From the NCBI GenBank assembly GCA_030429365.1, contig JAUIEW010000004.1, positions 1 through 57,202 on the forward strand: DNA of 57,202 nt. Reading direction: 5' to 3'. Below the pieces are notes generated by a model, which was not told the origin of the DNA, ran no database searches, and was given only the letters and a program-made list of their open reading frames with translations. Source of the stretch: Phycisphaerae bacterium (GTDB taxonomy: Bacteria > Planctomycetota > Phycisphaerae > UBA1845). Both the position numbers and the translations under genes were made by a program. Shown here in pieces: positions 1 through 40,724 of this stretch. Within the stretch, counting starts at the first letter, position 1; each line of letters opens with the position of its first letter.

Positions 1-940
1 TCCATCGGCATAGACTCATTGCATCTGGTCGATCCGGATGTTGTCGCTGTCGAAAATCTGGCTTGCCAAGGCTTCGATCAGGATAATTTGGGAAGAGCCA
101 AGGTCGAAGCAACTGCTGACTTCTGCCATCGCATCAATCCCTGCATGGAAGTCCTGACCGAAGAAAACCGATTCCGGCGCAGCGGTGCGTTCGGCAACGC
201 GATCTTCTGCTGTGTCGACAGCATCAAAACGCGCCGCTTTGTCTGGGAGAATGCGGGCGAACATGCCGAAATCTTCCTCGACGGCCGAATGACCGCCGAG
301 ACCATTCGAATTGTTACCGTCAGCGATGCGCATGGTCGCGATCATTACCCACGTACATTATTCGCACCGGACCGCGCCTACCGAGGCAACTGCACGAACA
401 AATCGACGATATTCGCCGCAAATATCGCAGCGGGATTGATGGTGTCGAACTTTAGCAAGTTCTTGAGAAGACTGCCCATCGAGCCAGACTTCTGCATGAA
501 TCTGTTAAGCAACGAGTTGTTGGTTTTTTGAGTCAAACGGTGGTTTCGCAGACCAAACCAATCCATACGCGAAAGGACATATCATGCAAGACTGTAATCC
601 GAAGAGTCGGCCCGATAGCCGAATTGAAAACCTGGAAACTAACCAGGCGGAGATTCGACATTCGAAATCAATTGCAACTGCACAGGCCCATTTCTTGCGC
701 CTTATTGCAGTGCGAATCGCACAACGATGGACCGCCAACCAGCGTGAGATTCCTGATTCCGATGACAAATAAAGTTGTTCTTGCCCCGCCGGTTTGCGGC
801 CAGTCTGCTGGAATTCGAATTGGAATGATGCTGCCGCCAAGCAGCAGGCGTTATTCCGCCAAATGTAAAATTTGGGGCCAATCATTCCTTCATGGTAAAA
901 CTGGCCCAGTTCACCGAGTGGCCTGTTCTTGGAGATTGAG

Positions 941-1966
941 ATGATATCGATTGAAGAAATCCTACCGAAAGCCAAATACCAAACGATTCCATCGCAATAC
1001 AAAAGCCATCCGCTAATTGAGGGGCGCTCGTATTACACTTTGCCCCTTCAACTTCTCAAAGAGCTAGTTAAACACTGCGGTGAAAACGCGTTCGACGCCG
1101 TTCTACTGAAAATGGAGCGCGATCTTGCGACGGCCCTTAGGCACAACCCGCGTCTCATCGGTTTTGACGGATATGGAGAAGTGCTCTCGCACGATTATCT
1201 GTCGAAGGATGATCTACCGCTTCCGAATCCTGACGACCAATTCTTGAATCGCATCGGCAAAACACGTGCGGGCTACGACCAATTCCTCGACGAAGCAAAA
1301 CAGCTGTTAACCTCCAGGCGAAACGAGTTACGAGGTTACATCGGGTGGCTGGTTACCAACCCGTCGTTCCGCAATGAACGGGACCAACTTTTTCAGAAGT
1401 GGGAACGCCACATCGCCGTCGTCGGTATACCCCAACATGGAACCATGTTCCTTCGCAATGCCAGTGGCAGCCATTTAGTGCTCAAAACTCGCAAGCCAAG
1501 ACGTTCACAGTTCTTTGACGATTTCACAGGATTCTATCGGCGGTGGCGTTTGCGACATCTGATGACGCATGAACTTCCAGTTCCAGTAGCGCCGAAGGTG
1601 ACTGCCCGTGGAGCGCTTGAGGGCAACGCACTTATGAACGGTGGCGGCGTTTGCGTCTGGCAGCCGGATACGGTTCCGGTGAGTTCCGGTGATCAACTCA
1701 AAGTGATGCTCGACGACATGCGCCTCAGTGGCGACAACGATCACCTTGACGAATGGATCAACAAGTTTAGCAAGACGGGGACGAACTCTCACACGATCCA
1801 TAAATTCGGCGACGTGCTCACAGTTCATTTTTACCGGAACCTGTTGCAGGAACGCCATCCAAATATGTTCAATCGCAGGAAAGGAAAAGTCATCGCGGCC
1901 TTTGGCGAATACCTTGGCCTCAGCCCGCGCCCAATCCAGAGGATCATTCGGCTGATCGACACTTAA
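941..1966 (+). CDS. hypothetical protein, unknown family (cargo of putative tRNA-Ser integrated element)
   Basis: Long ORF (929..1966 in the track) with internal ATG at 941 (MISIEEILPKAKYQ...); no recognised domain. Confidence 0.65.
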   Translation: MISIEEILPKAKYQTIPSQYKSHPLIEGRSYYTLPLQLLKELVKHCGENAFDAVLLKMERDLATALRHNPRLIGFDGYGEVLSHDYLSKDDLPLPNPDDQFLNRIGKTRAGYDQFLDEAKQLLTSRRNELRGYIGWLVTNPSFRNERDQLFQKWERHIAVVGIPQHGTMFLRNASGSHLVLKTRKPRRSQFFDDFTGFYRRWRLRHLMTHELPVPVAPKVTARGALEGNALMNGGGVCVWQPDTVPVSSGDQLKVMLDDMRLSGDNDHLDEWINKFSKTGTNSHTIHKFGDVLTVHFYRNLLQERHPNMFNRRKGKVIAAFGEYLGLSPRPIQRIIRLIDT

Positions 1967-2144
1967 CTGGCGGCAGGTTCATCCCACCAATTGAAATGAA
2001 CTGAGCCGATTTGCGTCACTTCCTCGTTAGGAAGTGGCGTATGAATTCACTCACTCGCCGCCAACAATTCCACGGAAACGAAAGCAACTCTCGGCGTATG
2101 CCGGCTTTGAAGGCCGGAATACGTCGAAGACTTGAGATCGATCC

Positions 2145-2531
2145 GTGGAAAAAGAGCCGTATTTCAACCAAGACGAGGAACAACACACTGGCGGAGGATC
2201 CGACCCAACACGTACGGACTCGCCGTCAGATTTGCAGTTCTTATCCGCTGCTGAATTTGCTGCGATTACCGGGCTCTCAAAAAGCACGGTGCGCCGCCGA
2301 ATCCGCGACAGTGATATTCCCGTTTTCCAGCCCGGCGGCCATCGCTGCCGGGTTCTGATCCCAGTTTCTGCAATCCAAAGCGTCACGCGAAAAGACAATT
2401 CAGACGACGACGGTTGCGCACCTTGTGCTAAACGTCCGGCAGAGCCTCGACTGCCAGGACCGTCGCCGACATGGCGACGTGCAAATATCAAAGCCAAGAT
2501 TCGGGGCCAGGGAGCAAACAATGGCTCATAA
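2145..2531 (+). CDS. small helix-turn-helix / excisionase-like DNA-binding protein
   Basis: LSAAEFAAITGLSKSTVRRRIRDSDIPVFQPGGHRCRVLIPVSAI resembles a MerR/excisionase-type HTH; 3' end overlaps the recombinase start codon. Confidence 0.6.
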   Translation: MEKEPYFNQDEEQHTGGGSDPTRTDSPSDLQFLSAAEFAAITGLSKSTVRRRIRDSDIPVFQPGGHRCRVLIPVSAIQSVTRKDNSDDDGCAPCAKRPAEPRLPGPSPTWRRANIKAKIRGQGANNGS

Positions 2532-3738
2532 ATCTTCGAATCAGACGATTTGCTGCAAATATTTTAAGTGGAAACTACGTCGCCGTAACGGCGTGTTCAT
2601 CGCCGATGGTCGAACAAACGCATCGCCGCTTGGTCGACATTCTCTTGGGACCAAAGACCGTGAAGAAGCCATGCGATTACTTTTTGAACTTGACCAGCTC
2701 AAAGCCGTCGAGTTGGACTTGGCCGATCCTGAAATCGTCGACCAGATTCAACACGATGCCGTCGAATTGGAAGAAGGTTGGAATCAGTATCGCGATTACC
2801 TCCGACGACCCGAAATCGCCGGCGGCGTGTGCGAGAAATCGGTCAAGAAGTACGCTGGAATTGTTAAGAAGTTCTTCCGGTTTGCACATAACCATGGTGT
2901 TACGAAATGGAACAATGTCACGACCCGATTCACAGAGAATTACCTTAGACATCTAAGCAACAAGAATTACGCCGACCGCACGATTTACTCCGAAGGGACA
3001 TTTATGAAACAAATCACAAAATGGATGATCGGCGAAGAAATCCTGCCCGCCGCCTGCATGATTAAGCTCAAACTCAAGAAAGTCCATGGGACAAATACAT
3101 ATTGCTGGAAGCAGCAGGAAGTGACGGCAATGATCAGACACTGCCGGCAAAGTCAGAAACTCAAATGGCTAGGCGACATTATCGTCGCATTGGCACACAC
3201 CGGTCAACGCATCAGTGAACTGGCGAACTTGCGATGGTCGGACGTGGATTTCGAGCATGGGCTCATTTGGATTACCAACGATAGAAGCAATGGAACTTCC
3301 GGACGACCAGCACGCAGAACCAAGAATCGGTGTGACCGAAGCATCCCCATTCATGGGGTTCTTCTAACGGTCTTAGGCGGTATTCCGAAATCGAACGACG
3401 GCTTTGTTTTTCGTGGACCACGGAATGGAAAACTGAAACCGGATGTGGTTCGGGTCGCCTTCATTCGTGATGTCATCAAACCACTCAAGGAGCGTTTTCC
3501 CACGGCAGAGGGTGCCATTGGTTTTGAAAACGGCCGATTGCATTCGTTCCGGCATTTTTTCTGCAGCGCTTCAGCCAACGCCGGTACACCTGAAGCTGTT
3601 GTGATGTCGTGGTTGGGGCACAAGAGCAGCGCCATGCTTCGTCATTACTACCACCTAAACAACAGCGAAGCCCAGCAGCAGATTGGGCGGATCGCGTTTA
3701 CAAGCGGGACGTTAGATCCCGAAGATGAAGACGAATGA
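2521..3738 (+). CDS. tyrosine recombinase / phage-type integrase
   Basis: ALAHTGQRISELANLRWSDV (catalytic R), HSFRHFF (HxxR), SWLGHKSSAMLRHYYH (H and Y); ATG at 2521 within the longer ORF. Confidence 0.9.
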   Translation: MAHKSSNQTICCKYFKWKLRRRNGVFIADGRTNASPLGRHSLGTKDREEAMRLLFELDQLKAVELDLADPEIVDQIQHDAVELEEGWNQYRDYLRRPEIAGGVCEKSVKKYAGIVKKFFRFAHNHGVTKWNNVTTRFTENYLRHLSNKNYADRTIYSEGTFMKQITKWMIGEEILPAACMIKLKLKKVHGTNTYCWKQQEVTAMIRHCRQSQKLKWLGDIIVALAHTGQRISELANLRWSDVDFEHGLIWITNDRSNGTSGRPARRTKNRCDRSIPIHGVLLTVLGGIPKSNDGFVFRGPRNGKLKPDVVRVAFIRDVIKPLKERFPTAEGAIGFENGRLHSFRHFFCSASANAGTPEAVVMSWLGHKSSAMLRHYYHLNNSEAQQQIGRIAFTSGTLDPEDEDE

Positions 3739-3798
3739 ACTAGGTGGTGCTGGTGGCCATTAAGAACGGCTGTCCCACAATTATCGAGACCGACCGGC

Positions 3799-3924
3799 AT
3801 GCGCTGGTTTGACCTTAAGAAAGAATCTGGGTGGCAATCTTGCGACGTCGCAACGGTCAAGCCGCTCAATACATTGGAGGACGCTCGAAGCGGATTGAAG
3901 ATTCGTGAAATGAAGAAGAAATAA
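3799..3924 (+). CDS. small ORF (41 aa), MRWFDLKKESGWQSCDVATVKPLNTLEDARSGLKIREMKKK
   Basis: Read directly from sequence; below the ORF-track size cutoff; lies between the integrase and tRNA-Ser. Confidence 0.25.
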   Translation: MRWFDLKKESGWQSCDVATVKPLNTLEDARSGLKIREMKKK

Positions 3925-30349: not shown

Positions 30350-31717
30350 ATGTCGCAGGATTCATCCATAGGCTTCGACGAGCCAACTTCGCTGGAAGAC
30401 GCAGAAGCCACGTCCAGCCGACCGCAAAAAGAATCGCGGAGCGACGACGGCCGTCAACGCAAGAATAATTCCCTCATCAGTCTCGATGAGCTGCGTTGCG
30501 AATTCATCGAATCCATTCGCGCCGGCATGACCGCGATGGATGACATCTACTCGGCAGACGGCATCCTGCTGCTGTCAGCTGGCTCGCGCATTACCCCGCG
30601 ATTCCTGCACCTTCTTCGCGAACGCGGCATCTTCCACGTTCAACTCGGCGCTCCGGGCACGATCGCAGAAGCACCGGTCGACGTCACCGAAGACTACGAA
30701 CTGCCCATCGACATCGGGTACGAGTTCCAGACCCCTAGGACCCGGGCGCTCGACAAGAAGCTCGACGGCGCGTTGATGGTACCGGTCAAGATCAATTCGA
30801 TCAGAGGATGGCGGCGACCTCGGTTGTCCATCGATGATCTTAAGAACGAAGCCGCCCAAGGCGTCGAACATCACGAAGCCACCACGACGGCTGTCTCGGA
30901 CATCTGCGACTCGCTTCGATCGGGTCGAAAGATTTCGTCGAGCGATTTGCGCAAGCACATCAACCACTTCGTTAACATTTCGACGTTTGACTTCGATTTG
31001 CTCCCGCTCATCGTTGCGATGAAAAACAGCAATGACGAATACCTTTACGACCACTGCGTCAACGTGGCGCTGCTGACGCTATCACTCGCAGCGCAGCTGG
31101 GACTTGACCGTGAAAGTGTGACGGAACTGGGTCTGGGCGGGTTGCTTCAAGACATCGGGATGATGCGCGTGCCCGAATCGATTCGGCTGTCTGCTGGCGA
31201 ACTGGGCGGACGCGAATGGCACGAAATCCACCTGCATCCGCTGCACACCGTTGAGATGCTGTCGAGCCTGACGGGCATCCCCCAATCGGTGAAATTCATC
31301 GGATACCAGGCCCACGAACGCATCGACGGCAGCGGCTATCCAAACCATCGCCGCGCCGAAAAACTGCACATGTACTCGCGCATCGTGTCGCTGGCGGACG
31401 TGTTTGCCGCGATGACCAGCGCACGACCGTATCGCAGCGCCATGCCCGCCTATGAAGCGGCGAAGACCATCCTCCTAAAAGGGACGGCCAACCATTTCGA
31501 CCGAACGCTCGTGCGCGGTTTCCTCGACACCGTTGCACTTTTTCCCATCGGCAGCACGGTCACGCTGAGCGACGAAACCCTCGCCCGCGTCCTTCGTGCA
31601 AACCCCGACGCGCACACCAAACCAGTCGTCGAAGAAATCGGCGAAGACGGCGAGACCACCGGCCGCGTTATCGATCTATCAAATCAAGAAGAGTTGTCCG
31701 TCATCAAAGCCGGCTAG
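30350..31717 (+). CDS. HD-GYP domain protein (c-di-GMP phosphodiesterase family) with altered HD motif
   Basis: GLGGLLQDIGMMRVPESI, QAHERIDGSGYPNHR, SRIVSLADVFAAMTSARPYR. Confidence 0.85.
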   Translation: MSQDSSIGFDEPTSLEDAEATSSRPQKESRSDDGRQRKNNSLISLDELRCEFIESIRAGMTAMDDIYSADGILLLSAGSRITPRFLHLLRERGIFHVQLGAPGTIAEAPVDVTEDYELPIDIGYEFQTPRTRALDKKLDGALMVPVKINSIRGWRRPRLSIDDLKNEAAQGVEHHEATTTAVSDICDSLRSGRKISSSDLRKHINHFVNISTFDFDLLPLIVAMKNSNDEYLYDHCVNVALLTLSLAAQLGLDRESVTELGLGGLLQDIGMMRVPESIRLSAGELGGREWHEIHLHPLHTVEMLSSLTGIPQSVKFIGYQAHERIDGSGYPNHRRAEKLHMYSRIVSLADVFAAMTSARPYRSAMPAYEAAKTILLKGTANHFDRTLVRGFLDTVALFPIGSTVTLSDETLARVLRANPDAHTKPVVEEIGEDGETTGRVIDLSNQEELSVIKAG

Positions 31718-32123: not shown

Positions 32124-32675
32124 ATGGTTGGGCTGATTCACAAGATCCTGTTTAACATGCTCGAATCGACTGCTGAACCCGAGGTCGCTATGGAGATTCG
32201 GCGACGCGCAGAGATCCCCGCGGAAAAAGAATTTCATATCAACGAAGTCTACGACGACGAAGAGTGGCGGCGGTTGTTCGCTGCGACGATCGACGTATTG
32301 AATATCACCCAGGAGCAGGCCGAAGAGGTGTACGCGGAGCACTTCATCAAAGACGGCCAGAAACGTTGGCCCGTTTGGTTCACCATGGCCAAGTCCGCCC
32401 GCGAGTTTCTCATCCGCCAACCGAAAATCCACAACGGTTTTGCGACCAGCCAACAGGACCCGGTTCTGAGATCGGCCATTGATGACAAGTTTCATGTCGA
32501 AGAGTGCGACGACGAACTCGTCATTCACTATCAATCGCCCAACAAGCTTTGCGGTTTGTACAAATCACTCGCAAACCAAGTCCTCAAGCTCTATGAAGAA
32601 AACGCGCAGGTGGATGAGTCATGCTGTATGAAGCAGGGCGCGCCTGAGTGCAAAATCCATGTCCGTTGGTCTTAG
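32124..32675 (+). CDS. heme NO-binding (H-NOX/HNOB)-like sensor protein
   Basis: MVGLIHKILFNMLESTAEPEVAMEIRRRAEI, FLIRQPKIHNGF (candidate proximal His), HYQSPNKLCGLYKSLANQV, CCMKQGAPECKIHV. Confidence 0.75.
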   Translation: MVGLIHKILFNMLESTAEPEVAMEIRRRAEIPAEKEFHINEVYDDEEWRRLFAATIDVLNITQEQAEEVYAEHFIKDGQKRWPVWFTMAKSAREFLIRQPKIHNGFATSQQDPVLRSAIDDKFHVEECDDELVIHYQSPNKLCGLYKSLANQVLKLYEENAQVDESCCMKQGAPECKIHVRWS

Positions 32676-32689
32676 GTCTCGAGAACAGC

Positions 32690-34183
32690 ATGCCAGAACT
32701 GCAATCGGCGCCGGCCAACAATCAAGAGCTCTGCGTTCTCATCGAACAGTTGGCCGATCAACTCTGCCCGGCCATTGACGGTAACTTCGATTTTTCCATA
32801 CAAGTCTCCAGCCGCCATGAAGGCGTCGACAAACTCCAGATGCTGATGAATCTTGTTCTGGATTCAGCCCACAGGGCACTTAGCAAACTCAACACCACGA
32901 ATACCGAGCTGATCGCGCTCAATGCCTCTTTCGAACTTGAAAGCGCGAAGGCAAAGCGGGCCACCGCAGCCAAGAGCGAATTCCTCGCGCGCATGAGCCA
33001 CGAGATTCGCACACCGATGACCGCCATTCTCGGGTTTGCAGAAAGCCTTCGAATGCGCGAACTGAACGAAGCCCAGATGACCGATGCCATTGATACGATT
33101 CACAGCAATGGTCAGTACCTGCTGGGGTTGATCAATGACATCCTCGACATGACCAAGATCGAGGCGGGCAAGATGGAAATCGAGCACGTTGCATGCACGC
33201 CCCGATCAATCGTCGCTAAAACGATGGAGTTGATGAGTGTGCGCGCGGAAGCCAAGAAGATTGGTCTCCACGCTGATTTTGTCGGATCGATACCCGAAAC
33301 CATCGTCTCCGATCCAACTCGGGTCAAGCAGATCCTTATCAACTTGCTCGGTAACGCCATCAAATTCACGGAAAACGGTGAAGTGCGTGTGATCGTTCAG
33401 ACCGTGCCCGATCCCCAAGTTGATACAACCGAAGCGAGCGACGAAGCCCTCCTGCAATTCGATGTGCTCGACTCCGGTATCGGTATGACTGAATCGCAGA
33501 CCCAGCGCCTTTTCAAACCGTTTGTCCAAGCCGACACAACGATGACCCGGAGATTTGGCGGGACAGGTTTGGGGCTGGCGATCAGCAAAGAACTCGCCAA
33601 TTTGCTTGGTGGAGACGTCGCGGTCATTCATTCGCAACTCGGGAGCGGTACGCAATTCAGGGCGACCATTGCCACAGGATCGCTCAATGGCGTCAAGATG
33701 CTCGACGGAAACTCAGTTGAAGAATCTGAAACGCTTGAGCGTTCCGCCGGCGCTCAACCGCAGGATAGTTTGCTTGGAGCAAGAATTCTTCTGGCTGAGG
33801 ATGGCATCGACAATCAACGCTTGATCACATTTGTGCTGGAGAAAGCCGGAGCCGAAGTCGAGGTGGCTGAGGATGGACAATGCGCACTATTCAAAGCCCT
33901 GAGCGCGGAAAGAAAGGGCCATCCTTTCGATGTAATCCTCATGGACATGCAGATGCCGGTACTGGATGGCTATCAGACCACAACGGCGCTGCGCTGCTGC
34001 GGATACTTGCGGCCAATCATTGCCCTGACCGCACAGGCGATGACCGGTGACCGTGAAACGTGCATCAATGCCGGCTGCGACGGTTATGCGACCAAACCCA
34101 TTGATCGAGACCGGTTGATTGAAGAACTCAATTTCCAGATCAAGAGAGCGCGGTCGGCCTCACCGGTCAAGATTTCTATCTAG
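32690..34183 (+). CDS. hybrid sensor histidine kinase with C-terminal receiver domain
   Basis: EFLARMSHEIRTPMTAILGF (HisKA), NLLGNAIKFTENGEV and GGTGLGLAISKEL (HATPase), DVILMDMQMPVLDGYQ and ATKPID (REC). Confidence 0.93.
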   Translation: MPELQSAPANNQELCVLIEQLADQLCPAIDGNFDFSIQVSSRHEGVDKLQMLMNLVLDSAHRALSKLNTTNTELIALNASFELESAKAKRATAAKSEFLARMSHEIRTPMTAILGFAESLRMRELNEAQMTDAIDTIHSNGQYLLGLINDILDMTKIEAGKMEIEHVACTPRSIVAKTMELMSVRAEAKKIGLHADFVGSIPETIVSDPTRVKQILINLLGNAIKFTENGEVRVIVQTVPDPQVDTTEASDEALLQFDVLDSGIGMTESQTQRLFKPFVQADTTMTRRFGGTGLGLAISKELANLLGGDVAVIHSQLGSGTQFRATIATGSLNGVKMLDGNSVEESETLERSAGAQPQDSLLGARILLAEDGIDNQRLITFVLEKAGAEVEVAEDGQCALFKALSAERKGHPFDVILMDMQMPVLDGYQTTTALRCCGYLRPIIALTAQAMTGDRETCINAGCDGYATKPIDRDRLIEELNFQIKRARSASPVKISI

Positions 34184-38999: not shown

Positions 39000-40724
39000 A
39001 TGAAGTTCAAAGTCGATGAAATCTCCTCGGTCCTACGGGAAGAAATCAGCAAGTACCAATCCACGATCGATGTCGCCGAAGTCGGCAAGGTCCTTGAGGT
39101 CGGTGACGGTATCGCCCGCCTCTATGGTCTGAGCAACGCGATGGCTGGCGAGATGGTCGAGTTTGCCGACGGCGCCATCGGACAGGTGCTTAACCTCGAA
39201 GAAGGCTCGGTCGGTGTCGCGATTCTGGGCGACTACCTCGGCATCAAAGAAGGCGACGAGGTCAAGCGCACCGGTAAGCTGCTGAGCGTGCCGTGCGGTC
39301 CCGCGATGATTGGTCGCGTGGTCGATCCCCTCGGTCGTCCGCTCGACGGCAAGGGCAACATCGAAACCAACCTGTCGCGCCCGCTCGAATTCAAAGCCCC
39401 CGGTATCGCCGAACGTCAGCCGGTGACCGAGCCGCTGCAGACCGGTATCAAAGCCATCGACAGTATGATTCCCGTCGGCCGCGGCCAGCGCGAACTCATC
39501 ATTGGCGACCGCAAGACCGGTAAGACCGCCATCGCCCTCGACACCATCATCAACCAGAAAGACACGGGCGTTATCTGCGTTTACATCGCGATCGGTCAGA
39601 AAGAATCGACCGTCGCCTCGGTGGTCGAAACGCTCCGCGAACAAGGCGCGATGGACTACACGATCGTCGTGTCGGCGACGGCAGCCAACCCCGCACCGCT
39701 GCAATACATCGCACCGTACGCGGGTGCAGCGATGGCCGAATACTTCATGTACGAGCAGGGTAAAGCCACGCTCTGCATCTATGACGACTTGTCCAAGCAG
39801 GCACAGGCCTATCGCCAGATGTCGCTCTTGCTGCGTCGCCCGCCGGGACGTGAAGCCTACCCCGGTGACGTGTTCTATCTCCACTCCCGTTTGCTCGAGC
39901 GTAGCTGCAAGCTCCTCGACGAGTACGCGGTGGTGCCGGCATCAACGGCTGACGACTGCCGTGATCGCAGCGTCATCGTCAAACACCCAGAAGGCCTGTC
40001 CGCACCGAAGGAACACCGTCCCGACGACGAAACCGGCGCATATCACCGCCCGGAAGGCAAAGAGAAAGCCGAAGCCTGGCTTGAGACGATGCCCAACAAG
40101 GATTCGCACAAGATTCACCGCTTCCCCGACTCGGGTGGCTCGATGACCGCCCTTCCCGTGATCGAAACGCTGGAAGGTGAAGTGTCCGCATACATTCCGA
40201 CCAACGTGATTTCGATTACCGACGGTCAGATCTATCTCGAACCCGATCTGTTCTTCGCCGGTATCCGACCGGCTGTTAACGTCGGTATCAGCGTGTCGCG
40301 CGTGGGTGGTAACGCCCAGGTAAAAGCGATGAAGAAGGTGTCCGGTTCGCTGCGTCTGGACCTGGCGGCTTTCCGCGAGTTGGAAGCGTTCGCCCAGTTG
40401 GGAACCGATCTCGACAAGTCGACGCAGGCCCAGCTCGATCGCGGTATGCGAATGGTTGAGTTGCTCAAGCAGCCGCAGTACGTGCCGCTAAGCGTCGCCG
40501 ACCAGGTCATCAGTATCTTCGCCGGTACCGGTGGTTTGCTCGACCCGATTCCGGTCGACAAGGTGCTCGACTTCGAAGCCAAGATGCTCCAACTCATTCG
40601 CGACGAGTATCCGGAAATCCGCGATGAGATCACCAACAAGAAAGCAATGTCAGACGATACGTCGGCAAAGCTGAAGCAGATCATTGCAGACTTCTCGCGT
40701 CGTTACCTGAGCGAGAACGCATAG
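39000..40724 (+). CDS. atpA: F0F1 ATP synthase subunit alpha with long internal insertion
   Basis: [14 protein letters not shown]-loop, [29 protein letters not shown]; unusual ~70-aa stretch after LLERSCKLL. Confidence 0.97.

Follow-up and report, generated by a model that had tools for sequence, protein, structure and literature searches.

In characterised H-NOX systems the NO-bound form of the H-NOX protein usually inhibits, and the heme is contacted by a conserved proline and by the arginine of the YxSxR motif, which anchors the heme propionates. The YxSxR motif has been described as absolutely conserved in H-NOX domains, and discrimination between O2 and NO depends on a tyrosine of the distal pocket (PMC12329717). 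Histidine kinases and GGDEF/EAL enzymes have already been characterised as being under the control of H-NOX proteins, so the kind of system considered here is known; no high-resolution structure of an H-NOX protein with its partner existed according to a 2022 review (PMC8738867). Here we describe a gene pair from a Phycisphaerae bacterium, found in a stretch of 57,202 nucleotides (the window), in which a variant H-NOX gene is followed by that of a soluble hybrid histidine kinase. We put the probability at roughly 0.6 that the pair is a heme-type, putatively NO-responsive sensor that signals in trans through a receiver module at the N-terminus of its partner.

The open reading frame at 32124-32675 on the forward strand starts with the ATG at 32124, encodes 183 residues and is a member of the H-NOX family. 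The HNOB profile PF07700 matches residues 3-164 with an E of 8.9e-21 and 74.9 bits, above the profile’s cut-off of 25.5 bits, and an AlphaFold2 model computed from nine sequences, that of the window and those of relatives, predicts an H-NOX fold (pLDDT 85.7). The 48 PDB matches of this model at E<=1e-3 are H-NOX domains or soluble guanylate cyclase (sGC) beta subunits, the best of them (4u99, 2o09 and others) reaching a TM of about 0.8. Both the profile match and the predicted fold bear out the initial annotation, which had proposed an H-NOX-like sensor from the letters alone. Among solved structures, sGC beta-1 is the nearest by sequence (E 5e-6), while the S. oneidensis H-NOX (2kil) is nearest over the C-terminal part. 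A genome search found no other HNOB gene in this genome. Against the 91%-identical relative L032 the gene is under purifying selection (dN about 0.04, dS about 0.67), with a dN/dS of about 0.06 for the H-NOX protein and about 0.09 for the N-terminus of the kinase. Profile and fold thus place the protein in the family, and the departure from YxSxR makes it a variant rather than a canonical H-NOX.

The departures lie in the heme pocket. His103 (32430-32432, forward strand), the candidate heme-iron ligand, aligns with the heme-ligand histidine of human sGC beta-1, and the YxSxR motif reads YQSPN (Y136-Q-S138-P-N140; 32529-32543, forward strand), with asparagine in place of arginine; the initial annotation had recognised both. 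It was silent on Asp121-Lys122 (32484-32489, forward strand), which replace the canonical Pro-x, as it was on the spread of the asparagine through a whole clade, the three-cysteine site and the N-terminal module of the kinase, all discussed below. Eight relatives from public genomes share invariant blocks with the window’s protein, including QPKIHNGFA and YxSPN. We aligned 57 HNOB sequences, made up of these eight relatives, further members from genome searches and the protein of the Acidiphilium cryptum plasmid pACRY01; in plasmid searches, clade members were found in Acidiphilium only. Asparagine (19 sequences) or histidine (2 sequences) takes the place of the arginine in 21 sequences from Planctomycetota, Gammaproteobacteria and one Alphaproteobacterium, whereas arginine is present in 35 of 35 others. 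Column 121 holds Asp or Glu in all 21 Asn/His-type sequences and Pro in all 35 of the Arg type, and column 122 holds Lys in all 21 and in a single one of the 35. In a tree built with the residue-swap columns left out, the two types fall on opposite sides of one branch (SH-aLRT 99); because this is a single split, the swaps count as one evolutionary event and not as independent replicates. As judged from the alignment, the asparagine is a trait of the clade and not a local oddity. The H-NOX of L036, an Acidobacteria record, is very like those of Planctomycetota metagenome-assembled genomes, which may reflect misbinning or recent transfer.

Given the known roles of the proline and arginine in heme contact, the propionate side of the pocket appears to have been rebuilt, with Lys122 as a candidate substitute for the lost arginine as propionate partner. 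The properties most directly touched by the arginine-to-asparagine change are the affinity for heme, the distortion of the heme and the relay of its movement. It had been suggested that ligand specificity may differ on account of this change; this does not follow directly, since the arginine anchors the propionates and discrimination runs through the distal tyrosine (PMC12329717).

That two known heme contacts are altered (Arg-to-Asn and Pro-to-Asp) counts against a heme sensor and speaks for a pseudo-H-NOX, a protein that has lost heme binding and serves as a structural or constitutive kinase subunit, or senses an unrelated small molecule. Precedents exist: His-less H-NOX clusters are known, among them the P. 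denitrificans group (PMC8738867), the H-NOX domain of sGC alpha binds no heme (PMC8196705), and the R139 mutant of sGC beta-1 has been cited as an apo-form precedent (PMC3212528). The HNOB relative at L093 (4547-5224), which lacks both the proximal histidine and the YxSxR motif, is nevertheless followed by a protein of module-PAS-GGDEF architecture; having lost His, Tyr and Ser while keeping its module partner, it indicates that the pairing can outlive heme sensing. Against such a loss in the clade proper, all 21 Asn/His-type sequences, drawn from two phyla, keep His103, Tyr136 and Ser138, a constancy that would be difficult to account for if no heme were bound, and Lys122 was gained together with the loss of the arginine. 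We therefore regard the loss of heme binding as quite unlikely.

A second potential input lies in the C-terminal part of the protein, where Cys143, Glu165, Cys168 and Cys176 (32550-32651, forward strand) form a candidate zinc-type site. Three cysteines align with the zinc cysteines of the S. oneidensis protein (2kil), whose site comprises Cys139, His161, Cys164 and Cys172; the position of the fourth ligand, His or Gln in sites of this type (PMC7108781), is occupied by Glu165. The protein could accordingly be a redox or zinc sensor independent of heme, in which these residues bind zinc and oxidation to disulfides controls the kinase, heme being absent or dispensable. Apart from the aligned cysteine pattern, such a sensor would be in keeping with the activation of heme-free V. 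cholerae H-NOX and of Caulobacter H-NOX by cysteine oxidation (PMC7108781, PMC12329717), with a weak Pfam match of the window’s protein to V4R, with a weak match to the MsvR model in six of nine members and with an additional cysteine, Cys167. The site is gone, however, from L079 and L120 (Acidiphilium), both of which retain the histidine, the YxS residues and the asparagine, and it also occurs in canonical Arg-type H-NOX proteins, so that its presence cannot account for the altered pocket. A purely redox- or zinc-based sensor is for these reasons unlikely; because the heme residues persist where the cysteine site has been lost, we rank heme above redox as the input and take the pocket to be the better-kept of the two.

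The partner is encoded at 32690-34183 on the forward strand, its ATG at 32690 lying 14 bp after the H-NOX stop codon; an alternative in-frame GTG at 32648 would overlap the H-NOX gene. The protein of 497 residues is a hybrid histidine kinase with HisKA (residues 94-160), HATPase_c (208-327) and REC (366-480) domains by Pfam, and with H104, D419 and the N and G boxes intact. Hydropathy reveals no membrane segment in it (highest 19-residue value 1.14), so a soluble histidine kinase stands beside the H-NOX gene as in HnoK-type systems. Coordinates, domains and hydropathy all agree with the initial annotation’s description of a hybrid kinase 14 bp downstream with no obvious transmembrane sensor, and its idea that the signal is delivered by a partner gains much strength from the conserved, clade-exclusive N-module described below. 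About 400 bp upstream of the H-NOX gene, on the same strand, 30350-31717 encodes an HD-GYP-type protein with the motif HERIDGSGYP (PF13487, E 2e-27), the N-terminal half of which (~225 residues) has no family assignment. A phosphorelay to this protein was considered and rejected, and the gene was excluded from the system, because no REC domain was found in it and it is shared with the near relative L032 only and not with the other clade loci. Elsewhere in the window, an ATP synthase alpha-like frame (39000-40724, 574 residues) appears to contain an unusual charged insertion and is longer than is usual for this protein.

A search of the genes downstream of the H-NOX showed that conservation of the kinase’s first ~80 residues extends to partners whose remaining sequence is not that of a kinase. 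Within them lies a module of ~60 residues (about residues 11-75 in the window; 32720-32914, forward strand), the proposed H-NOX receiver, which begins the gene directly 3' of every H-NOX gene of the clade. Across 15 aligned N-termini, Q24, C26, A28, G31, K48, L49, L52, N54 and R62 are invariant, besides Met1. The outputs behind the module vary: hybrid histidine kinases, in which PAS or GAF domains may be present or absent (the window, L037, L086, L088, L089 and L090), other histidine kinases (L034, L081, L082 and L091), PAS-GGDEF proteins (L036 and L093), GGDEF-EAL proteins (L033 and Acidiphilium) and Ser/Thr kinases (L079 and L080). The last are Hanks-type kinases (L079 5351-6541 and L080 3269-4459; PF00069, E about 1e-41). 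At L037 a second hybrid-kinase frame (255-3896, 1214 residues) lies directly upstream, placing the H-NOX gene between two hybrid kinases.

The module is restricted in its distribution. Each of the 21 clade-member genomes has one copy, directly downstream of the H-NOX gene, and a genome search found none in two genomes with canonical H-NOX. Among 296 Planctomycetota genomes the module occurs in 4, all with the variant H-NOX, and among 369 Gammaproteobacteria genomes strong matches are confined to 4 clade-member genomes, with three further matches that are marginal (E 7e-4 to 9e-4). Genome G399 has a second, canonical H-NOX, and its single module stands beside the variant one. The pairing of H-NOX and module-bearing partner is thus strongly supported. 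Conserved adjacency does not prove contact, and one might suppose that the two proteins are mere neighbours and that the N-module answers to something else; adjacency in 21 of 21 cases, the restriction of the module to variant-H-NOX genomes in two phyla and its persistence in front of outputs that are unrelated to one another make this very improbable. A conserved pair, an exclusive module and exchangeable outputs together support, instead, a sensor that acts in trans on a receiver module.

No Pfam family describes the window’s copy of the module, members giving scattered coiled-coil noise, and the same holds for NCBIfam; no significant PDB sequence match was found. Its model (pLDDT 86.0) predicts a helix at residues 8-24(29), an extended connector and a long helix at 44-99. 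The HAMP domain (PF00672) resembles this predicted arrangement in its helix, connector of about 14 residues and long helix, and in a Gly...Leu...Asn pattern: in profile-profile comparison with 13 HAMP domains of the same genome the Gly-connector-Leu-Asn pattern aligns, though at a low probability of 20%. The best Foldseek matches are likewise HAMP domains, none of them significant (E at least 0.88). The module differs from HAMP in having no adjoining membrane helix, and PF00672 is absent from the matches of every one of the 15 copies, even with the E cut-off set at 10. With profile, Foldseek and profile-profile comparison all short of significance, formal identity with HAMP was dropped, and on the strength of the model we describe the module as HAMP-like and not as HAMP.

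We propose that the H-NOX protein would bind heme through His103 and report NO or another heme ligand, and that its change of state would act in trans on the N-module of the next gene’s product, probably by physical contact. The module, perhaps working as a HAMP-like helical dimer, would then alter the activity of whichever output lies behind it; in the window, this would be autophosphorylation of the HisKA/HATPase unit followed by transfer to the fused REC domain. Within the pocket, Lys122 may take over the propionate role of the lost arginine. We infer NO as the signal, and a close relative of quinol-type NO reductase in the window’s genome (L138 643-2943; PDB matches with E about 1e-255) is consistent with exposure to NO; no copper nitrite reductase was found in that genome. 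The odds are about even for a more specific proposal, in which the N-module is a dedicated HAMP-like, plug-in H-NOX receiver for any output, Hanks-type Ser/Thr kinases included, and the heme is held by a Lys122/Asn140 anchor.

Searches of open-licence papers returned no description of the variant pocket, the shared module or the Ser/Thr kinase outputs, and nothing that paired H-NOX with ‘Planctomycetes’. The clade-exclusive module offers a concrete docking candidate of ~60 residues, and H-NOX control would probably extend to Ser/Thr kinases. By breaking a motif described as absolutely conserved, the clade also constitutes a natural experiment on heme anchoring.

Compared with the H-NOX-HnoK systems of S. 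oneidensis and V. cholerae, the locus shares the H-NOX fold, the proximal histidine, the three-cysteine site and an adjoining soluble histidine kinase, and differs in having Asn for Arg, Asp-Lys for Pro-x and Glu as the presumed fourth zinc ligand; its kinase differs from HnoK in its fused REC domain and its N-module, the latter being absent also from the HnoK-like kinase beside a canonical H-NOX at L095. In Vibrio HqsK/HahK and Caulobacter HnoK, as in the window, the H-NOX gene adjoins that of a hybrid histidine kinase with REC, but the motif of these systems is the canonical YxSxR according to the literature, in contrast to YQSPN. The P. denitrificans H-NOX/DgcA pair (group 5) is similar in that a divergent H-NOX gene overlaps a GGDEF gene whose product has an unnamed N-terminal domain (PMC8738867). 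The group 5 H-NOX lacks the proximal histidine, unlike that of the window, and is possibly kin to the degenerate type seen at L093.
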